A stretch of DNA of 21,335 nt, taken from the IMG/VR virus record IMGVR_UViG_3300036944_000046, positions 1 through 21,335 of that record. One strand, 5' to 3'. Of the stretch, positions 3 to 17,668 are shown piece by piece. How positions within the stretch are numbered: position 1 is the first letter of the stretch; each line of letters begins with the position of its first letter. Position numbers and translations under genes: made by a program. The stretch comes from a virus. A model generated the notes under the pieces. That model made no database searches and had not been told where the DNA came from. It saw only the letters and a program-made list of their open reading frames with translations.

Positions 3-716
3 GTAATTGAGCCGTATATCGATCAGTCCTATGCCGAACTCGCAGTCTATGTGAATGCGTTTGAACAAAAGATGCGGATGAAGCGTGAAGCGATTGCTAA
101 CAAAGGCATCTGGACTGGCAAGAAGCACTACATGCTGAATGTTTACAACAACGAAGGCGTCCAGTATAACGAGCCACAGTTGAAGATGGTTGGCATTGAA
201 GCAGTCAAATCATCCACACCAGCAGCCTGCCGCGACAACATCAAAGATGCTATCAAGATCATCATGAACAAATCTGAACCAGAGTTGGTCAAGTTTGTTC
301 AAGATTTTCGCGGTGAGTTCCGCAAGATGCGGTTCGACCAAGTGGCATCACCACGTGGTCTGAATGGTATGAATAAATACAAAAACAGCACCACCGGCTG
401 GGAGAAGGGTACGCCTATTCATGTTCGCGGCGCGCTTGTCTATAATCAGATGATTGACAGACATTCCCTACAGAAGAAGTTAGAGAAAATTCGTGACGGC
501 GATAAGATCAAGTTCTGCTACCTGTTGACGCCCAATCCGTCGCGCGAAAATGTAATAAGCATTCCAGATACTTTACCAGAAGAGTTCTTCCTTGAAGACT
601 ACATCGATTATGAACTCCAATTTGAGAAAGTATTTGCTGGTCCCCTTCGGTCTATTACCGATGTGATCGGTTGGAATCTTGAAGAAAAAAGTACACTAGA
701 AGGATTCTTTGGATGA
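3..716 (+). CDS. 43: DNA polymerase, T4 gp43-like family B, C-terminal part (5' end outside window)
   Basis: Replicative DNA polymerase of the phage replisome. The frame is open from base 3 with no in-frame start needed (GTG at 51 is internal), so this is the last 237 residues of a roughly 850-900 residue enzyme. The segment KKHYMLNVYNNEGVQYNEP, followed by LKMVGIEAVKSSTP, matches the thumb region of T4 gp43 (established family knowledge), and HVRGALVYNQ matches the downstream HIRGVLTY block. The protein ends STLEGFFG, the place and style of the T4/RB69 gp43 C-terminal peptide that docks on the sliding clamp. The stop TGA (714-716) overlaps the ATG of the next gene. The codons for TLEGFF are part of a 17-bp repeat found again at 1222-1238. 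The polymerase and exonuclease active sites lie outside the window. Confidence 0.95.
   Translation, partial: VIEPYIDQSYAELAVYVNAFEQKMRMKREAIANKGIWTGKKHYMLNVYNNEGVQYNEPQLKMVGIEAVKSSTPAACRDNIKDAIKIIMNKSEPELVKFVQDFRGEFRKMRFDQVASPRGLNGMNKYKNSTTGWEKGTPIHVRGALVYNQMIDRHSLQKKLEKIRDGDKIKFCYLLTPNPSRENVISIPDTLPEEFFLEDYIDYELQFEKVFAGPLRSITDVIGWNLEEKSTLEGFFG
694..710 (+). repeat. 17-bp direct repeat, copy 1 (cassette left edge)
   Basis: The sequence cactagaaggattcttt is identical at 694-710 and 1222-1238, 528 bp apart. Here it encodes the polymerase C-terminal residues (T)LEGFF and also carries the AGAAGGA ribosome binding site of the gene starting at 713. Confidence 0.95.
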
Positions 717-1213
717 TTGTTTCTAAAATGAAACTATACAATATGGAGATATGTGACTCTCTTAAAGAGATAATTTTTATATTAAACAGTGATTTTGAAA
801 AGCAGCATATACCTAAGATTAGCGAAGAGTTTAATAAGAAGGGTCGGTCTTTGATATCTCCGAAATCTTTAAATGCTGGATATTCTGAATCATTTAATAA
901 AATGGGGTTTGTTAAATACCGTCCTTTCAAAGACAGTTCATGTGAGATAGACTTTTTTAAAGATGGTGTAGGAATAGAAATTCAATTCGGTAAGTATTCG
1001 TATATAATATATGATATCTATGCGAAACTAAGACCGTGTTTCTTTAATGATACACTCAAGTATGGCATTGAAGTTGTTCCTACTAAAGCAATGTGTGATA
1101 AAATGTCTAACGGCGTCGGCAACTTTGAGACAGAAGTTAAGAAATTAGATAGATGCTCTATCGACTTTCCTTTGGCTATTCTCGGTATTGAAACGACAAA
1201 TGAAACAGTATAA
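713..1213 (+). CDS. BglII/BstYI-family type II restriction-endonuclease-like nuclease (PD-(D/E)XK)
   Basis: Predicted dsDNA endonuclease of 166 residues. The core CEIDFFKDGVGIEIQFGKYS has D80, E89 and Q91. This is the same D-x8-E-x-Q spacing as the BglII catalytic residues D84, E93 and Q95. The following GIEVVPTK, MSNGVG and FPLAILGIE blocks also fit the BglII/BstYI family as I remember it. BglII itself is longer (about 220 residues), so this is a compact member. The ATG at 713 overlaps the polymerase stop and has AGAAGGA 8 bases upstream; Met6 (728) is an alternative start. The gene is visibly more AT-rich than its neighbours, no methyltransferase lies beside it, and it is bracketed by exact direct repeats, all suggesting recent acquisition. 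The nearest methyltransferase gene is at 16537. Cleavage specificity is not shown by the protein sequence alone. Confidence 0.78.
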   Translation: MIVSKMKLYNMEICDSLKEIIFILNSDFEKQHIPKISEEFNKKGRSLISPKSLNAGYSESFNKMGFVKYRPFKDSSCEIDFFKDGVGIEIQFGKYSYIIYDIYAKLRPCFFNDTLKYGIEVVPTKAMCDKMSNGVGNFETEVKKLDRCSIDFPLAILGIETTNETV

Positions 1214-1221
1214 GTTAACCT

Positions 1222-1238
1222 CACTAGAAGGATTCTTT
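1222..1238 (+). repeat. 17-bp direct repeat, copy 2 (cassette right edge)
   Basis: Identical to 694-710. It is noncoding here and provides AGAAGGA (1226-1232), 8 bases before the ATG at 1241, the same spacing as for the gene at 713. Confidence 0.95.
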
Positions 1239-1240
1239 TC

Positions 1241-1510
1241 ATGACAGACTTTGAGATAAACGACTTCGGCTTTAGTGCAGTATCAGAAGAAGAATTGGAA
1301 TCGGTACAAAATGTCGAAACCATTCTTACTGAATATGACGCGAAACTTAATGCTTTACAGGATCGATTAGATGGTGTATACTCAGCTATAAAGCCTCTGC
1401 TAAAACACTTGAAAGATAGCCCAAATAAAGACTATATCTATTGGCCTAATCGCCTTGAGAAGATATCTGAATTTGAAGAAAAATTACTCGAACTCTATAA
1501 AGGGAAATAA
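1241..1510 (+). CDS. Small conserved T4-like protein upstream of uvsX, function unknown
   Basis: An 89-residue acidic protein. It opens MTDFEINDFGFSAVSEEELESV. A helical, probably coiled-coil stretch follows (roughly residues 20-55), and it ends with a conserved-looking KDYIYWPNRLEKISEFEEKL block. I recall similar short proteins with a YIYWPNR motif between gene 43 and uvsX in T4-like phages of environmental bacteria, but no function is known to me. Start ATG 1241 has AGAAGGA at 8 bases, inside the direct repeat. Its coding sequence ends one base before the uvsX ATG at 1512, so the two are probably translated together. Before insertion of the nuclease cassette its ATG probably overlapped the polymerase stop. 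Confidence 0.85.
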   Translation: MTDFEINDFGFSAVSEEELESVQNVETILTEYDAKLNALQDRLDGVYSAIKPLLKHLKDSPNKDYIYWPNRLEKISEFEEKLLELYKGK

Positions 1511-1511
1511 T

Positions 1512-2594
1512 ATGTCATTAATGGACAAAATGATAAAAAACAGTACAATCAAGCTAACGTCTGCTATTGGAGACTCGAAGGTCTTCGGTAAGAAAGAGAT
1601 GGCACAAACGCCTGTGCCGATGATTAACGTTGCTCTTTCTGGTCGCGTAGACGGCGGACTTGTTCCTGGTTTGTTGATGCTTGCTGGACCATCGAAACAC
1701 TTCAAGTCTGCATTTGCCTTGCTGATGGTTGCAGCTTATCAGAAAAAGTATCCAGAAGCCGTGGTCCTGTTTTATGACTCCGAGTTTGGTACACCTCAAG
1801 CGTATTTCGAATCATTCGGCATCAATATGGAACAAGTGATTCATACGCCGATTACCGATGTTGAACAATTGAAGTTTGATATTATGAAGCAACTTGATGG
1901 TATTGAGAAAAAAGACCGCGTGGTTATCGTTATCGATTCGATTGGTAACTTGGCTTCAAAGAAAGAAGTCGAAGACGCAATGAATGAGAAATCTGTAGCC
2001 GATATGAGCCGCGCAAAGCAGATGAAATCATTGTTCCGTATGGTGACACCTCACCTGAACCTCAAAGATATCCCATTAATCGCAGTCAATCACACATACA
2101 AAGAGATTGGTCTGTATCCGAAAGATATCGTGTCAGGAGGGACTGGTGCTTACTATTCAGCGGATGCTATCTGGATCATCGGTCGTCAACAAGAGAAAGA
2201 TGGTAACGAGATTGCTGGCTATAACTTCGTCATCAATATTGAGAAGTCGCGCCACGTCCGCGAGAAGTCGAAAATCCCGATTATGGTGACATTCGAAGGC
2301 GGCATTATGAAGTGGTCTGGTCTACTTGAAGTCGCAGAAAAAGGCAAGTTCATTCTTAAACCAAAAGTTGGATGGTATCAGCCAATTGATCCTGAAACTG
2401 GTGAAATTCTTTCTGAAAAACTATTGCGCGCCAAGGATATCGTGAATAACGGCGAGTTTTGGAAGATGATGTTTGAAAAAACAGCGCTTGCAAATTACAT
2501 CAAAATGCAGTATACTATGGGTACAAAGTCTTTGATGAATGAGGACGATCAGGTACAAGAATATAGCGATGATGAGGAAGATGAAGACGAATGA
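1512..2594 (+). CDS. uvsX: UvsX, RecA-like recombinase
   Basis: Strand-exchange protein for recombination-dependent replication and repair. The 360 residues contain Walker A GPSKHFKS at 59-66 (T4 UvsX has the same GPSKxFKS form), Walker B VVIVID at 137-142, and the L1/L2-region sequence NHTYKEIGLYPKDIVSGGTG. The C-terminus is strongly acidic (YSDDEEDEDE), as in RecA/UvsX proteins, where it tunes DNA binding. The start is ATG 1512 with upstream AGGGAAAT; the frame is open 57 bases further upstream, but that extension runs back into the previous gene and lacks similarity. The last four bases overlap the helicase start (ATGA, 2591-2594), so translation is likely coupled. Its partner genes uvsY and 32 are not in this window. 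Confidence 0.97.
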   Translation: MSLMDKMIKNSTIKLTSAIGDSKVFGKKEMAQTPVPMINVALSGRVDGGLVPGLLMLAGPSKHFKSAFALLMVAAYQKKYPEAVVLFYDSEFGTPQAYFESFGINMEQVIHTPITDVEQLKFDIMKQLDGIEKKDRVVIVIDSIGNLASKKEVEDAMNEKSVADMSRAKQMKSLFRMVTPHLNLKDIPLIAVNHTYKEIGLYPKDIVSGGTGAYYSADAIWIIGRQQEKDGNEIAGYNFVINIEKSRHVREKSKIPIMVTFEGGIMKWSGLLEVAEKGKFILKPKVGWYQPIDPETGEILSEKLLRAKDIVNNGEFWKMMFEKTALANYIKMQYTMGTKSLMNEDDQVQEYSDDEEDEDE

Positions 2595-4423: not shown

Positions 4424-4591
4424 ATGCAGAAGTCGCACAATCTAAAAGATTTGATCCTAGAAGCAATCACTGAGGCACGTATCATGGAATGCGCCCGTGA
4501 TGTGTATGATGAAAACAATGTGTTGCTGACTGCGATGCGTCTGTCTGGTGCACCATACTCTTTCATCCAAGAAGTCGCAAACAGACATTAA
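4424..4591 (+). CDS. Small protein, function unknown
   Basis: 55 residues, starting MQKSHNLKDLILEAITEAR and ending SFIQEVANRH. The ATG at 4424 follows a GGGAGGG ribosome binding site (4410-4416) and lies just downstream of a sigma70-like promoter. Upstream in-frame codons back to 4286 run through promoter sequence and are not coding. It is predicted all-helical. The LILEAITEA segment resembles a phage prohead protease cleavage signature (hydrophobic-x-E before A), but its likely early expression makes a capsid role doubtful. I do not recognise it. Confidence 0.6.
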   Translation: MQKSHNLKDLILEAITEARIMECARDVYDENNVLLTAMRLSGAPYSFIQEVANRH

Positions 4592-4611
4592 TTTAATATA
4601 AGGAACAAAAA

Positions 4612-5457
4612 ATGCTTCTATGGCCAGATGGCAACATAAATTCAGAATATTCGAAAAAACTTATTGACGCCAAAACAACAAATGATCATAACTTTTGGAA
4701 CGTGTTACGAGAAGTTATTGCGTATGATTTTAAAACAAACAATTTAGATAGATGCAAAGTTTGGGCGTCAACTTCTTTGGTGCCTCTCCTTTCGTCTAAT
4801 AACAAGTTCGCAGAAATTTATCACGCTTGCTTAAATACTTTAACTACCGAACATGCAGAATTGTATCATAACGCTATGAGTGAGCCTATGGTAGGATGCA
4901 CTCTAGAAGATTTCAATATTTCATTCAGAATGTTTTCTGATAGAAATTATTCCATGAATCGTATGCAGTTATTGTATCATCTTTTGATTTCTGGATGGAA
5001 TGTTAGTAACTTGAATAGCATCAACTCTATTGTAGAAATAGGCGCTGGAATGGGGGAACTCACTGATGTTGCATACAAGTTAGGCTTCAATGGCAAATAT
5101 AGTATTTTTGATTTTCCAGAATTACTCAATTTGCAGCGACATATTCATCGTGGCGTAGGACTCAATGATGTGGAATATTTGTCTGAGTTTGAAGATTTTC
5201 CTGTTGCTGACTTGGGTATCGCGACATTCTCTTTCACTGAAATGCCAATCGAACAGAGAGAGCGGATCATCAACACTATGGCAAAAACTAAAAATTGGAT
5301 CATAGCGTATTCCAACTTTATCTTTGGACTAGACAATGATGCTTACATCAAAAACGTTTTTGTTGAAAAATTTCAAAACCACGATATCTCGTTTATAGAT
5401 ATTCCCTTCATGCCGTGGGATGGTGGCTCAAAATATTTAGTGATAAAGAGCAAATAA
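4612..5457 (+). CDS. SAM-dependent methyltransferase, sugar O-methyltransferase-like
   Basis: 281 residues. The Rossmann-fold SAM-binding motif I is VEIGAGMGEL at 141-150. Following strands read KYSIFDFPELLNLQRH (motif II-like acidic residue after a strand) and DLGIATFSFTEMP (motif IV-like), and the protein ends GGSKYLVIKSK. The overall pattern, including FRMFSDRNYSMNRMQLLYHL before motif I, resembles putative sugar O-methyltransferases found in surface-polysaccharide and phage contexts. The substrate cannot be read from sequence. It is AT-rich and uses codons unlike the core genes, suggesting acquisition from a bacterial glycan cluster. RBS AAGGA lies 8 bases before the ATG. It could modify host surface glycans (blocking superinfection) or virion or DNA sugars. 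Confidence 0.7.
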   Translation: MLLWPDGNINSEYSKKLIDAKTTNDHNFWNVLREVIAYDFKTNNLDRCKVWASTSLVPLLSSNNKFAEIYHACLNTLTTEHAELYHNAMSEPMVGCTLEDFNISFRMFSDRNYSMNRMQLLYHLLISGWNVSNLNSINSIVEIGAGMGELTDVAYKLGFNGKYSIFDFPELLNLQRHIHRGVGLNDVEYLSEFEDFPVADLGIATFSFTEMPIEQRERIINTMAKTKNWIIAYSNFIFGLDNDAYIKNVFVEKFQNHDISFIDIPFMPWDGGSKYLVIKSK

Positions 5458-12229: not shown

Positions 12230-13270
12230 ATGGCATTAGATCCAGTTAATCCGAAGGCGCTAAAAGGCAAATTCAAAGACCGCGAAGACAAAGATATCGA
12301 CAACGATGGTGATACAGATTCTTCAGACGAATATCTACACAAGCGCCGTCAAGCCGTTTCAAAGGCGATTGGCAAAAAAGTAGAAGAAGCCAAGATGACG
12401 CCTGACGAAATGAAGAAGGCACTTGCTTCTGATAAAGCAAAAGCACAATCGAAAGACAAAGTTTCTTTGAAGAAGCCACCTTTCAAGATGGATGAAGAAG
12501 CCGAACAAATTGATGAGTTGTCTAAAGATACTCTTAAAAGTTATCGTGATAAATCTAAGGAAAGCTCAAAAGAACTTGGCGCAAAGTTGGATTCTGCGCC
12601 AAAAGACGTAATGGGTGGCATTAAATCTAAAGATCGTCCTACTCTAGATAAACTACAAAATAGAGTTCGCGGACAGCGAGTGTCTTATAAAAAATTAAAC
12701 GCAGAAGAAGCCAAGATGACGCCTGACGAAATGAAGAAGGCGCTCGATTCTGATAAAGCAAAAGCACAATCGAAAGACAAAGTTTCTTTGAAGAAGCCAC
12801 CTTTCAAGATGGATGAAGCAGTGAACGAAAAACAGATCAGAAAAGACCTTGATTCTGGAATGTCACATGATGTTGTTATCGGCAAACATGCCAACAAGAA
12901 AACAACTAACACCGACGAAATCCGTAAAGTGATCAAGCAACATGCTTTTGATAAGCGCATGAAAAAAGAATCAGTCGTGTTAAAAGCCCTGCGCCGTATA
13001 TCAGAAGCAAAAGACGCATACACTGTAGCCCACAAAACATTCTCTTCAGCCGTTCAACACGCAGAAGAAGTTGCTAAAAAGCGCGGCTTCGAAATTGATC
13101 CAGAAGAATGGGATCGCAAAGTATCTATGGGTCCTCGTAAACCTGGAACTGGTAAGACAAACTCATACAAGATCGACCTTATGAAAGATGGTAAAGAAGT
13201 GAAGCAAAAACTTAACATGCAAGTTTACTATGACGAAGGTCGCTACGAACTTAATATGTACATTTCTTAA
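12230..13270 (+). CDS. T4-like structural-type protein with EF-hand-like motif and recent internal duplication
   Basis: 346 residues, very rich in Lys and Glu. Near the start (about 21-40) is DKDIDNDGDTDSSDEYLHKR, an EF-hand-like calcium loop common in T4-like phage proteins. Two copies of a 116-bp unit (EEAKMTPDEMKKAL ... KPPFKMDE) lie at codons 51-90 and 158-197, with 3 base differences. The C-terminal domain (about 262-346, KDAYTVAHKTFSSAVQHAEEV ... YYDEGRYELNMYIS) is a conserved ending I recall from environmental T4-like phages, preceded by RRISEAKDA, a possible prohead protease site (I-S-E before A). AAAGGAG precedes the ATG. Probably an inner-capsid protein processed during maturation; this is inference. 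Confidence 0.7.
   Translation: MALDPVNPKALKGKFKDREDKDIDNDGDTDSSDEYLHKRRQAVSKAIGKKVEEAKMTPDEMKKALASDKAKAQSKDKVSLKKPPFKMDEEAEQIDELSKDTLKSYRDKSKESSKELGAKLDSAPKDVMGGIKSKDRPTLDKLQNRVRGQRVSYKKLNAEEAKMTPDEMKKALDSDKAKAQSKDKVSLKKPPFKMDEAVNEKQIRKDLDSGMSHDVVIGKHANKKTTNTDEIRKVIKQHAFDKRMKKESVVLKALRRISEAKDAYTVAHKTFSSAVQHAEEVAKKRGFEIDPEEWDRKVSMGPRKPGTGKTNSYKIDLMKDGKEVKQKLNMQVYYDEGRYELNMYIS
12382..12497 (+). repeat. 116-bp direct repeat, copy 1
   Basis: Near-identical to 12703-12818 (3 differences), offset 321 bases, so the reading frame is preserved. Confidence 0.95.
12703..12818 (+). repeat. 116-bp direct repeat, copy 2
   Basis: Second copy of 12382-12497. The differences fall in the codons GCA/GCG, CTT/CTC and GCT/GAT (one amino-acid change, Ala to Asp). 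Confidence 0.95.
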
Positions 13271-15502: not shown

Positions 15503-16537
15503 ATGAATTATATCGATCTCAAGTATACGAATCTTCTGTCAAATAGACTTGAGAGATTTTCAATCAAAGATACGAATCCATACAGAGTAAACTTTAGATG
15601 CCCTTTGTGTGGAGACTCAGCTAAGTCAAAAAGTAAGACACGTGGATGGATACTCGAAAAGAATAACGCTGCACTCATGTATTGCCACAACTGTGGTGCT
15701 TCCATGGGTCTGCGCAAGTTTCTCGAAAAAGTTGATCCAATTCTATACAACGATTATATCATTGATACTCGACTCGACAAAGATATTCTTAAAAAACAAG
15801 TTCAAGAGTTAACTTCGCCATTAGATACACTGACACACAAGGTACCCAATTTCAAAAAGAGTGGGTCGCCTTTGTTGTCTATTCGAAAGATTAGTCAATT
15901 GAAAGGTGGTCATCCTGCGAAGACTTACATAGAGAACCGACAGATACCAGCGAACCAACACTATAAGTTATACTATGCACCTAAGTTCAACGAGTGGGTA
16001 AACAGTATTATTCCAGGTAAACTGCCAGAACAAGAAAGAGATGCACCAAGACTGATACTGCCGTTCATTGATGACAAAGGAAATCTATTCGGTTTTCAAG
16101 GTAGAGCGTTTGATAAATACTCGCTGCGCTATATCACAATCATGATCAATCCCACAATGCCAAAGATATTTGGTTTAGATACTGTTGACTTCGAAAGGAA
16201 GTATTATGTTGTTGAAGGTCCTATTGATAGTCTTTTTCTTGATAATGCAGTGGCCATGGCTGGCGCTGATGGTTCTGGTTCTGGGCTTTCTCATATAGAG
16301 AATGCGATTATGGTGTTTGACAACGAGCCTCGAAACAAAGAAATATGTTCTCGTATGGAGAAATGTCTTGACAAAGGCTACAAAGTTTGCATATGGCCGA
16401 CGAATGTGGTTGACAAAGATATCAATGATATGATATTATCGAATATAAACAACGCTGACGTCCAGCTTATTATTGACCAAAACACATACTCTGGATTACA
16501 AGGCAAATTAAAACTCACTTATTGGAGAAAATGTTAA
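15503..16537 (+). CDS. 61: DNA primase, T4 gp61-like
   Basis: 344 residues. Makes RNA primers for lagging-strand synthesis with the gp41 helicase. A zinc-binding domain has CPLC (C33, C36) and CHNC (C61, C64). The TOPRIM-type catalytic core shows YYVVEGPIDSLFL near 233-245 and the metal-binding IMVFDNEP near 270. ATG 15503 is preceded by GGAG (15494-15497); the longer GTG start at 15479 would sit on the transcription start. The C-terminus LTYWRKC is encoded by the left copy of a 20-bp repeat and the stop overlaps the methyltransferase ATG by one base. Confidence 0.93.
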   Translation: MNYIDLKYTNLLSNRLERFSIKDTNPYRVNFRCPLCGDSAKSKSKTRGWILEKNNAALMYCHNCGASMGLRKFLEKVDPILYNDYIIDTRLDKDILKKQVQELTSPLDTLTHKVPNFKKSGSPLLSIRKISQLKGGHPAKTYIENRQIPANQHYKLYYAPKFNEWVNSIIPGKLPEQERDAPRLILPFIDDKGNLFGFQGRAFDKYSLRYITIMINPTMPKIFGLDTVDFERKYYVVEGPIDSLFLDNAVAMAGADGSGSGLSHIENAIMVFDNEPRNKEICSRMEKCLDKGYKVCIWPTNVVDKDINDMILSNINNADVQLIIDQNTYSGLQGKLKLTYWRKC

Positions 16538-16540
16538 TGA
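16521..16540 (+). repeat. 20-bp direct repeat, copy 1 (cassette left edge)
   Basis: attggagaaaatgttaatga is identical at 17649-17668, offset 1128. Here it encodes the last primase codons (YWRKC stop), supplies the GGAG ribosome site and contains the ATG of the methyltransferase. Confidence 0.96.
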
Positions 16541-17649
16541 CGGCAACACTCATGTTGGGAAATTGTCTAGACAAAATGAAAGACATTGATGACAACAGTG
16601 TTGATAGTATTGTCACTGATCCTCCGTACGGGCTATCTTTTATGGGAAAGAAGTGGGACTATGATGTTCCCTCTACTGAAATTTGGGAAGAAGCATTTCG
16701 CGTTTTGAAACCAGGTGGATTTCTTTTATCATTTGCTGGCACAAGAACTCAGCATCGCATGGCTATTCGCATTGAAGACGCGGGCTTTGAAATCCGTGAT
16801 ATGATTGCATGGATTTACGGAAGTGGGTTTCCGAAATCTATGAATATCGGTAAGGCGATTGATGATGTAAAACAATGGGAAGGTTGGGGCACTGCACTCA
16901 AGCCTGCATTAGAGCCGATTACAGTTGCAAGAAAGCCGATAGAAGAAAAGAATGTTGCTGCTAATGTGTTAAAATATGGCACTGGTGGTATCAATATTGA
17001 TGCGAGCCGTGTTAAAATTGATCCAGAACTTGATGCATCACAAATTAGAACACTTAATAGTAGTGCTAGATATGACGATACAAATGGACAAACTTGGGGA
17101 ATGAATAAAGATAAAAGTGGTACACCACGTGTATTCCAAGTAGTCAGAGAAGAATGTCGTTTCCCTGCGAATCTGATCCACGACGGAAGCGAAGAAGTCA
17201 CAGAACTTATGGGAGAATCTGCGCGTTTCTTCTATTGTCCCAAAATTTCAAAGGCAGATCGTGATGAGGGATTGGATGCGTTTGAAGAAAAATCGATTGG
17301 CGGTAAAGGCAACGGCATCCGCAGAGTGTGTTCCAAATGCGGAGCATCTTCTCTTGAAGCGCATACTTGTCATTGCGAAGAAAAAGATTGGATTAATCCA
17401 TCAACTAAAAGGAATAATCATCCAACCGTCAAACCAACTGATCTAATGCGGTATCTAGTTCGTATGGTAACACCAAAAGACGGCACCGTTCTTGATCCAT
17501 TTATGGGGTCTGGTTCTACAGGCAAAGCCGCAAAGTTGGAAAGATTCAACTTTATCGGCATAGAACTTGATGCTGAATATTTTGAAATTGCAAAAGCAAG
17601 AATAGAAGATGTCAAAGAAGAAACAACACTAGAAGAATTTTTTAAATAA
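16537..17649 (+). CDS. DNA methyltransferase, beta-type amino-methyltransferase (m6A or m4C)
   Basis: 370 residues. Catalytic motif IV TDPPYG is near the N-terminus (DPPY 28-31), and the SAM-binding motif I DPFMGSGSTGKAA is near the C-terminus (about 318-330), followed by FNFIGIELDAEYFEIAKARI. This order defines the beta group. DPPY favours N6-adenine, but N4-cytosine enzymes cannot be excluded. A central insert carries VCSKCG..HTCHCEE, a likely zinc ribbon, next to the target-recognition region. It ends TTLEEFFK, similar to the polymerase tail STLEGFFG. ATG 16537 has GGAG 9 bases before it; TTG 16522 and ATG 16531 are less likely. It may protect phage DNA against host restriction or pair with the nuclease at 713 (inference). 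Confidence 0.88.
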   Translation: MTATLMLGNCLDKMKDIDDNSVDSIVTDPPYGLSFMGKKWDYDVPSTEIWEEAFRVLKPGGFLLSFAGTRTQHRMAIRIEDAGFEIRDMIAWIYGSGFPKSMNIGKAIDDVKQWEGWGTALKPALEPITVARKPIEEKNVAANVLKYGTGGINIDASRVKIDPELDASQIRTLNSSARYDDTNGQTWGMNKDKSGTPRVFQVVREECRFPANLIHDGSEEVTELMGESARFFYCPKISKADRDEGLDAFEEKSIGGKGNGIRRVCSKCGASSLEAHTCHCEEKDWINPSTKRNNHPTVKPTDLMRYLVRMVTPKDGTVLDPFMGSGSTGKAAKLERFNFIGIELDAEYFEIAKARIEDVKEETTLEEFFK

Positions 17650-17668
17650 TTGGAGAAAATGTTAATGA
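17649..17668 (+). repeat. 20-bp direct repeat, copy 2 (cassette right edge)
   Basis: Identical to 16521-16540. It starts on the last base of the methyltransferase stop codon and carries GGAG and the ATG of thyX. Confidence 0.96.

Follow-up and report, generated by a model that had tools for sequence, protein, structure and literature searches.

The question raised by this locus is how a gene for a nuclease of the restriction-enzyme type came to lie directly behind the DNA polymerase gene of a T4-like phage, and whether it spreads there as a mobile gene. The window, which denotes the whole analysed virus contig of 21,335 bp, had been described in an initial annotation as carrying an exact 17-bp repeat on both sides of a BglII-like gene with the active-site pattern D80, E89, Q91, the left copy being the 3' end of the polymerase gene and the right copy the leader of the next gene. 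All of these features were recovered (Table 1).

Table 1. Features at the two insertion sites of the window and at the neighbouring genes
Feature	Position	Strand	Remarks
3' part of DNA polymerase gene 43	3..716	+	ends ...STLEGFFG-stop, clamp-binding-type tail; PHROG 262 E=2e-91
Left copy of 17-bp repeat	694..710	+	polymerase tail codons and Shine-Dalgarno GAAGGA serving the nuclease
Solitary BglII/BstYI-family nuclease, 166 aa	713..1213	+	D80/E89/Q91; PF09195, BstYI 1sdo, AlphaFold model
Right copy of 17-bp repeat	1222..1238	+	leader/Shine-Dalgarno for next gene; +1 frame: ...LTSLEGFFS-stop
89-aa gene, no function assigned	1241..1510	+	in empty relatives directly after polymerase
uvsX recombinase	1512..2594 (start ~1512)	+	PHROG 97 E=2e-85
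Left copy of exact 20-bp repeat	16521..16540	+	
N6/N4-type DNA methyltransferase (DPPY)	16531..17649	+	ends ...TTLEEFFK; PF01555 E=1.6e-36
Right copy of 20-bp repeat	17649..17668	+	leader/start of next gene, thymidylate synthase ThyX-like

The junction behind gene 43 and its empty counterparts

The two copies of the repeat CACTAGAAGGATTCTTT lie 528 bp apart, start to start, and the repeat is longer than expected by chance, the longest repeat in 500 first-order-Markov resamples of positions 1-1300 comprising 8-13 bp. The TGA of the polymerase gene overlaps the ATG of the nuclease gene, while the small 89-aa gene begins 27 bp past the nuclease stop, so that an overlap is present at the upstream side only. 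In a second occupied contig (L084) the right repeat copy is identical and the nuclease is identical over the part covered.

Searches with the polymerase end and the small gene revealed five contigs with an empty polymerase/small-gene junction (L085, L086, L004, L005 and L006), and no PF09195 protein was found elsewhere in these contigs. Empty sites, which the initial annotation had proposed to look for by aligning this junction, therefore exist, and the nuclease is not carried by all relatives. The polymerase end of L085 and L086 showed 100% protein and 97.7% DNA identity to the window, and the gap from polymerase to uvsX amounted to 271 bp compared to 799 bp in the window, a difference of exactly 528 bp. 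The polymerases of L004, L005 and L006 were 91%, 86% and 86% identical, and all three junctions were empty.

The length to be excised had thus been predicted correctly. The polymerase end expected after excision, LEGFFS, was not recovered, since all five empty junctions read ...LEGFFG-stop, and the small gene's ATG overlaps this TGA; therefore, the left copy keeps the ancestral polymerase end. Likewise, of the supposed junction between gene 43 and uvsX only the gene 43 side holds true, because the 89-aa reading frame lies in between. The proposal that the gene entered without damage to its neighbours is in agreement with the data: with the stop/start overlap restored by the insert and a second copy of the leader with the ribosome-binding site supplied, neither neighbour is harmed.

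The contig L087 (3285-4255) encodes a polymerase 52% identical to that of the window, while the next two genes are 81-84% identical. Based on these identities, recombination appears to have taken place right at the polymerase/small-gene junction.

Family, methylase partners and positions of the nuclease

The nuclease matched the Pfam family Endonuc-BglII (PF09195) with an E-value of 3.2e-13 and 50.2 bits compared to a cut-off of 26, and phmmer matched it to BstYI (1sdo) with an E-value of 5.6e-18; NCBIfam contained no family for it. D80, E89 and Q91-F-G-K-Y95 belong to the residues that are invariant in an alignment of 33 sequences. An AlphaFold2 model built on this alignment reached a pLDDT of 92.2 and a pTM of 0.88, and its best Foldseek matches were BstYI, BglII, OkrAI and BamHI. 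By structural alignment, BstYI resulted in a Z of 22.5 with an rmsd of 1.6 over 161 of the 166 residues, followed by BamHI with 18.4, BglII with 17.8 and the next unrelated structure with 5.4. By profile, predicted fold and catalytic residues, the protein is a BglII/BstYI-family nuclease. The structure prediction suggested by the initial annotation thus gave a fold of the BstYI/BglII/BamHI type, and the lack of a PD-(D/E)XK fold, which would have spoken against its reading, was not observed. In the nuclease of the window, a stretch of about 35 residues is missing that separates the N-terminal helices from the catalytic core in BstYI-like phage enzymes.

Enzymes of this family are usually accompanied by an SPPY (N4-type) methylase. 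In a cellular sample of 80 bacterial and archaeal loci, kept from more than 540 matches, such a methylase adjoined the nuclease in 56 of the 59 loci with enough flank, and the same was observed for 16 of 19 such loci from other phages; these values understate the adjacency, as the motif filter overlooked at least one real case (L205). No SPPY methylase was found beside the nucleases of the window, L002 and L209, or in the shorter flanks of L213. In the window, no adjacent cognate methyltransferase is present within 15 kb downstream, the upstream view comprising 711 bp, and the 172-kb contig of L209 (G016) showed neither a PF01555 match nor a convincing methylase motif. The L187 nuclease adjoins methylases, a Dam-type one and another, of DPPY type. 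Between this nuclease and the second methyltransferase lies a 191-aa reading frame (L187:5605-6180) with a weak Pfam match to S-AdoMet lyase (E=0.003, below the cut-off).

In the phylogenetic tree, the nucleases of the window, L187 and L002 form one clade (support 100/99), the exact depth of L002 being unsure due to its long branch. L209 groups with L213 in another clade, which lies within the methylase-paired enzymes (100/93 with L219). Judged from this tree, the T4-like nucleases appear to have left restriction-modification at least twice, and each of the two solo lineages holds several insertion sites.

Altogether, the T4-like nucleases occupy five positions among core genes: between gene 43 and the small gene-uvsX pair in the window, behind gene 43 and the Dam-type methylase in L187 (four contigs, 65% identical), between genes 47 and 46 in L002 and L003 (45%), directly upstream of gene 43 in the 172-kb contig of L209, and between genes 44 and 62 in L213 and L214, where a NUMOD3-HNH homing endonuclease follows. 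Stop/start overlaps with the neighbours were found at both ends of the insert at the L002, L209 and L213 sites; at L187 the upstream overlap is present and the next gene begins 73 bp past the nuclease stop. Empty alleles were found for four of the five positions. Besides the junction of the window, these are 47/46, which is empty with a gap of 0 in the close L002 relatives L108-L110 (gp47 99% identical), 44/62, which is empty in L398 and L399 (gap of 3) and contains other inserts in close relatives, and the position upstream of gene 43, where the nuclease is present in one of about 70 loci and nearly all others show 0-22 bp.

The 47/46 junction is shared with other genes. Its alternative occupants comprise HNH-like genes in L179 (Pfam, below the cut-off) and in L112 and L183 (recognised by eye only), endonuclease-VII genes in L171, L174 and L176, and Mom-family modifiers in L142 and L165 (Pfam). 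Across L106-L185, kinase-like genes were also found at this place, and many of the proteins inserted there end in tails of the LEAFL/LEEFF type.

The left flank of the L002 nuclease (104 bp) diverged by 19% from the lineage of L002 itself, compared to 1-2% just upstream and 0% on the right side. The same stretch differed by only 7.7% from L180, L181 and L184, which elsewhere in gp47 are 16-31% different. Since this flank is nearer to the latter than to its own lineage, a short donor flank arrived together with the gene. For the window no such tract can be assigned: the divergence of 9.6% right of the insertion compared to 2.2% shows no clear asymmetry against the background between the window and its empty relative G009, and the higher value was not taken as a sign of a donor tract because 9.6% lies within the range found elsewhere between the two genomes.

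RGATCY content and presumed mode of spread

If the nuclease has a BstYI-like specificity, RGATCY would be its likely target. Among 32 degenerate palindromes, RGATCY was the most depleted in all four carrier contigs, with observed compared to expected numbers of 2 to 11.6 in the window, 0 to 10.2 in G002, 0 to 10.0 in G012 and 0 to 92.2 in G016, amounting to 2 compared to 124 for the pooled carriers. Both remaining sites of the window are AGATCC. The pooled gene-43 loci showed no depletion (311 compared to 338), nor did DLP_6, S-SM1 and C48C1, and the methylase-paired phage DC1 was partly depleted (9 compared to 30.5). In G016 (172,580 bp), RTCGAY (0 of 79) and YCCGGR (0 of 59) are wholly absent as well.

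This depletion was not accepted as proof of specificity, because the window's empty relatives show depletion as well (5 compared to 16.8, 3 to 11.8 and 0 to 12.3), as does phiM12 (KF381361 1-49990, L562; 0 compared to 30.4), in which no gene annotated in that range is named as a BstYI-like nuclease. With regard to the target, the depletion in the carriers is suggestive only; it fits a BstYI-like specificity and would explain how a nuclease without methylase is tolerated. In the clade of the window it is older than the insertion, and it may originate from host restriction. No RGATCY was found near the junction of the window, and no target site was specifically destroyed by the insertion.

The mobility of the nuclease gene is well supported by the comparison of occupied and empty junctions. 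We assume that it encodes a free-standing, methylase-less BstYI/BglII-type nuclease and spreads in a homing-like manner as a mobile gene of T4-like phages, and assign a probability of roughly 0.5 to this reading, in which cleavage and homing are the presumed parts. In a mixed infection, a co-infecting phage whose DNA is unprotected would be cut by the enzyme, presumably at RGATCY-like sites missing from the carriers, and recombination-dependent replication would mend the breaks from carrier DNA, by which the gene would spread. The five core-gene sites, the hot spot that HNH and endonuclease-VII genes also use and the co-transferred flank strengthen the earlier suggestion of a homing-like element as far as genome comparison can do so.

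With a 6-bp recognition site, a nuclease would cleave competitor DNA at many places, which agrees better with killing than with site-directed homing. The enzyme could be a weapon that degrades the DNA of the host or of RGATCY-bearing competitor phages, while the carrier, its own sites being purged, remains safe and the gene, moved by ordinary recombination, is kept as beneficial. The absence of RGATCY from 172 kb of G016 with 92 expected and no methylase found points in this direction, as do the depletion preceding the insertion in the window's clade, by which such a nuclease would be tolerated, and the clamp-type tail of the L187 nuclease. However, core-gene junctions have been entered repeatedly, including a hot spot of homing endonucleases, a flank was co-transferred, and occupancy at the L209 site is as low as one in about 70. 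These points argue against a weapon, and we regard this explanation as quite conceivable and yet rather doubtful.

Returning to the homing-like reading, an extended form can be put forward tentatively: a lineage of type II enzymes would have been freed from restriction-modification at least twice, yielding methylase-free mobile nucleases of T4-like phages whose carriers are protected by the complete, genome-wide loss of recognition sites and which spread in a homing-like manner into coupled core-gene junctions.

Free-standing nuclease genes in core-gene junctions of phages are of a known kind (PMC2988022, PMC10448857), and the free-standing homing endonucleases of T4 belong to the GIY-YIG (seg) and HNH (mob) types (PMC2988022). 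Like these, the present nuclease is a lone gene between conserved core genes, which is present or absent among close relatives, shares a hot spot and, in L002, has a foreign flank. It differs from them in its fold and in its expected target, which is short and palindromic, and cleavage and biased inheritance are in its case presumed.

PD-(D/E)XK is listed among the fold classes of homing endonucleases (PMC6083498), with I-SspI being cited as an example (Zhao et al. 2007, cited in PMC10448857). I-SspI and the nuclease of the window have in common that a mobile gene uses a restriction-enzyme fold. I-SspI is intron-encoded and derives from another PD-(D/E)XK branch, whereas the gene of the window is intergenic and stems from a family of true type II enzymes. 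With BstYI and BglII (PF09195) the nuclease shares the fold, the catalytic residues D-x8-E-x-Q, the GKY motif and the core, while it comprises 166 instead of 203 aa, has no adjacent SPPY methylase and is encoded between phage core genes. The Burkholderia phages DC1 and BcepIL02 likewise encode a BstYI-like nuclease, which forms a complete restriction-modification pair with an adjacent methylase, in contrast to the solitary one described here.

No description of free-standing insertions of the BglII/BstYI type was found in the open-access literature searched, which agrees with the initial annotation. Since PD-(D/E)XK homing endonucleases are known, its term of an undescribed class has to be narrowed to an undescribed variant. 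What is new, judging from the genomes compared, is that a true restriction enzyme of the BstYI/BglII type occurs without its methylase at five positions and in two lineages. If this holds true, the restriction enzymes of bacteria would be linked to the homing endonucleases of phages, a short-site restriction enzyme would survive without a protecting methylase in genomes purged of its sites, and the restriction enzyme alone as a selfish mobile gene would become a directly testable question. Furthermore, the junctions would show, as a natural before and after, how a gene enters overlapping operon junctions with the translational coupling intact.

A second insertion and the origin of the repeats

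Apart from a few blocks, the window and the empty relative G009 are collinear at 93-98%; one such block, at about 16.5-17.6 kb, corresponds to the methyltransferase gene. This insertion of 1128 bp, about 15 kb from the nuclease, is flanked by an exact 20-bp duplication, ATTGGAGAAAATGTTAATGA, which spans the next gene's leader and start and is single-copy in G009 and G003. Both contigs lack the nuclease as well as the methyltransferase, and no PF01555 match was found anywhere in them.

The 17-bp duplication is most simply explained if repair synthesis switched templates and returned to the leader. For both inserts, repair synthesis would exit the recipient in the start region, copy the donor gene and re-enter slightly upstream. 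Flanking repeats as a trait of the nuclease family were rejected: the repeat at the 47/46 insertion comprises 9 bp, and none is significant at L209, L187, L213/gp62 and most other 47/46 inserts. The 17-bp repeat is thus, by this comparison, a feature of the insertion event in the window and not of the nuclease family.

Another origin of the right copy has to be considered. Read in the polymerase frame, which is +1 relative to the nuclease, it forms a second clamp-peptide end, ...KLTSLEGFFS-stop, placed like the tail ...NNIENFFE of the L187 nuclease. It could therefore be a clamp-binding tail of the nuclease itself, which arose as a copy of the polymerase end and has since shifted out of the reading frame, in which case there would be no target duplication. 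C-terminal tails similar to the clamp-binding peptide of gp43 (PIP box, described in PMC3012046) recur in these genomes and were found in the polymerase (LEGFFG) and methyltransferase (LEEFFK) of the window and in the Dam (LDAFFG), second methyltransferase (LDSFFE) and nuclease (IENFFE) of L187. However, what is duplicated at the methyltransferase insertion, which parallels this one, is a 20-bp leader and not a tail, and the exact identity of 17 out of 17 bp demands recent copying anyway, so that this origin is considered rather unlikely.

The shared absence of both inserts from G009 and G003, together with their leader duplications, could also indicate that the nuclease and the methyltransferase were gained together as the two parts of a split restriction-modification system. 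This is improbable, since the methyltransferase belongs to a DPPY family that is very common in phages (more than 590 viral matches, PHROG 67), while the partners of the nuclease family are of the SPPY type, and since no methylase was found in G016 and yet another insertion (4574-5440) distinguishes the window from G009. As its similarity to the partners of BstYI-like enzymes is only generic, the methyltransferase was not accepted as the cognate partner. Restriction-modification genes are cited as inserting with variable long target duplications (Nobusato et al. 2000, cited in PMC3031569). As far as that citation describes them, those insertions resemble the present ones in joining nuclease or methylase genes with direct target duplications of variable length, and differ in that they concern bacterial restriction-modification genes, while here single phage genes are inserted and the duplications are confined to translation leaders. 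Classical transposition with target-site duplication, to which the direct repeats flanking the two inserts (17 and 20 bp) might point, is highly improbable, since no inverted repeats were found at positions 400-2000, neither insert contains a transposase, each consisting of one gene, and the repeat length is unequal between the two inserts and 9 bp or absent at other sites.

Two further differences to G009 were observed. At 4574-5440, the window contains 867 bp with a reading frame of 281 aa, for which no Pfam family was found at E<=0.01, instead of 5 bp in G009; the flanking repeats of this block are not convincing. At 12230-13270, a reading frame with an internal duplicated segment (MTPDEMKKAL...KSKDKVSLKKPPFKMDE) differs in length between the window and G009.
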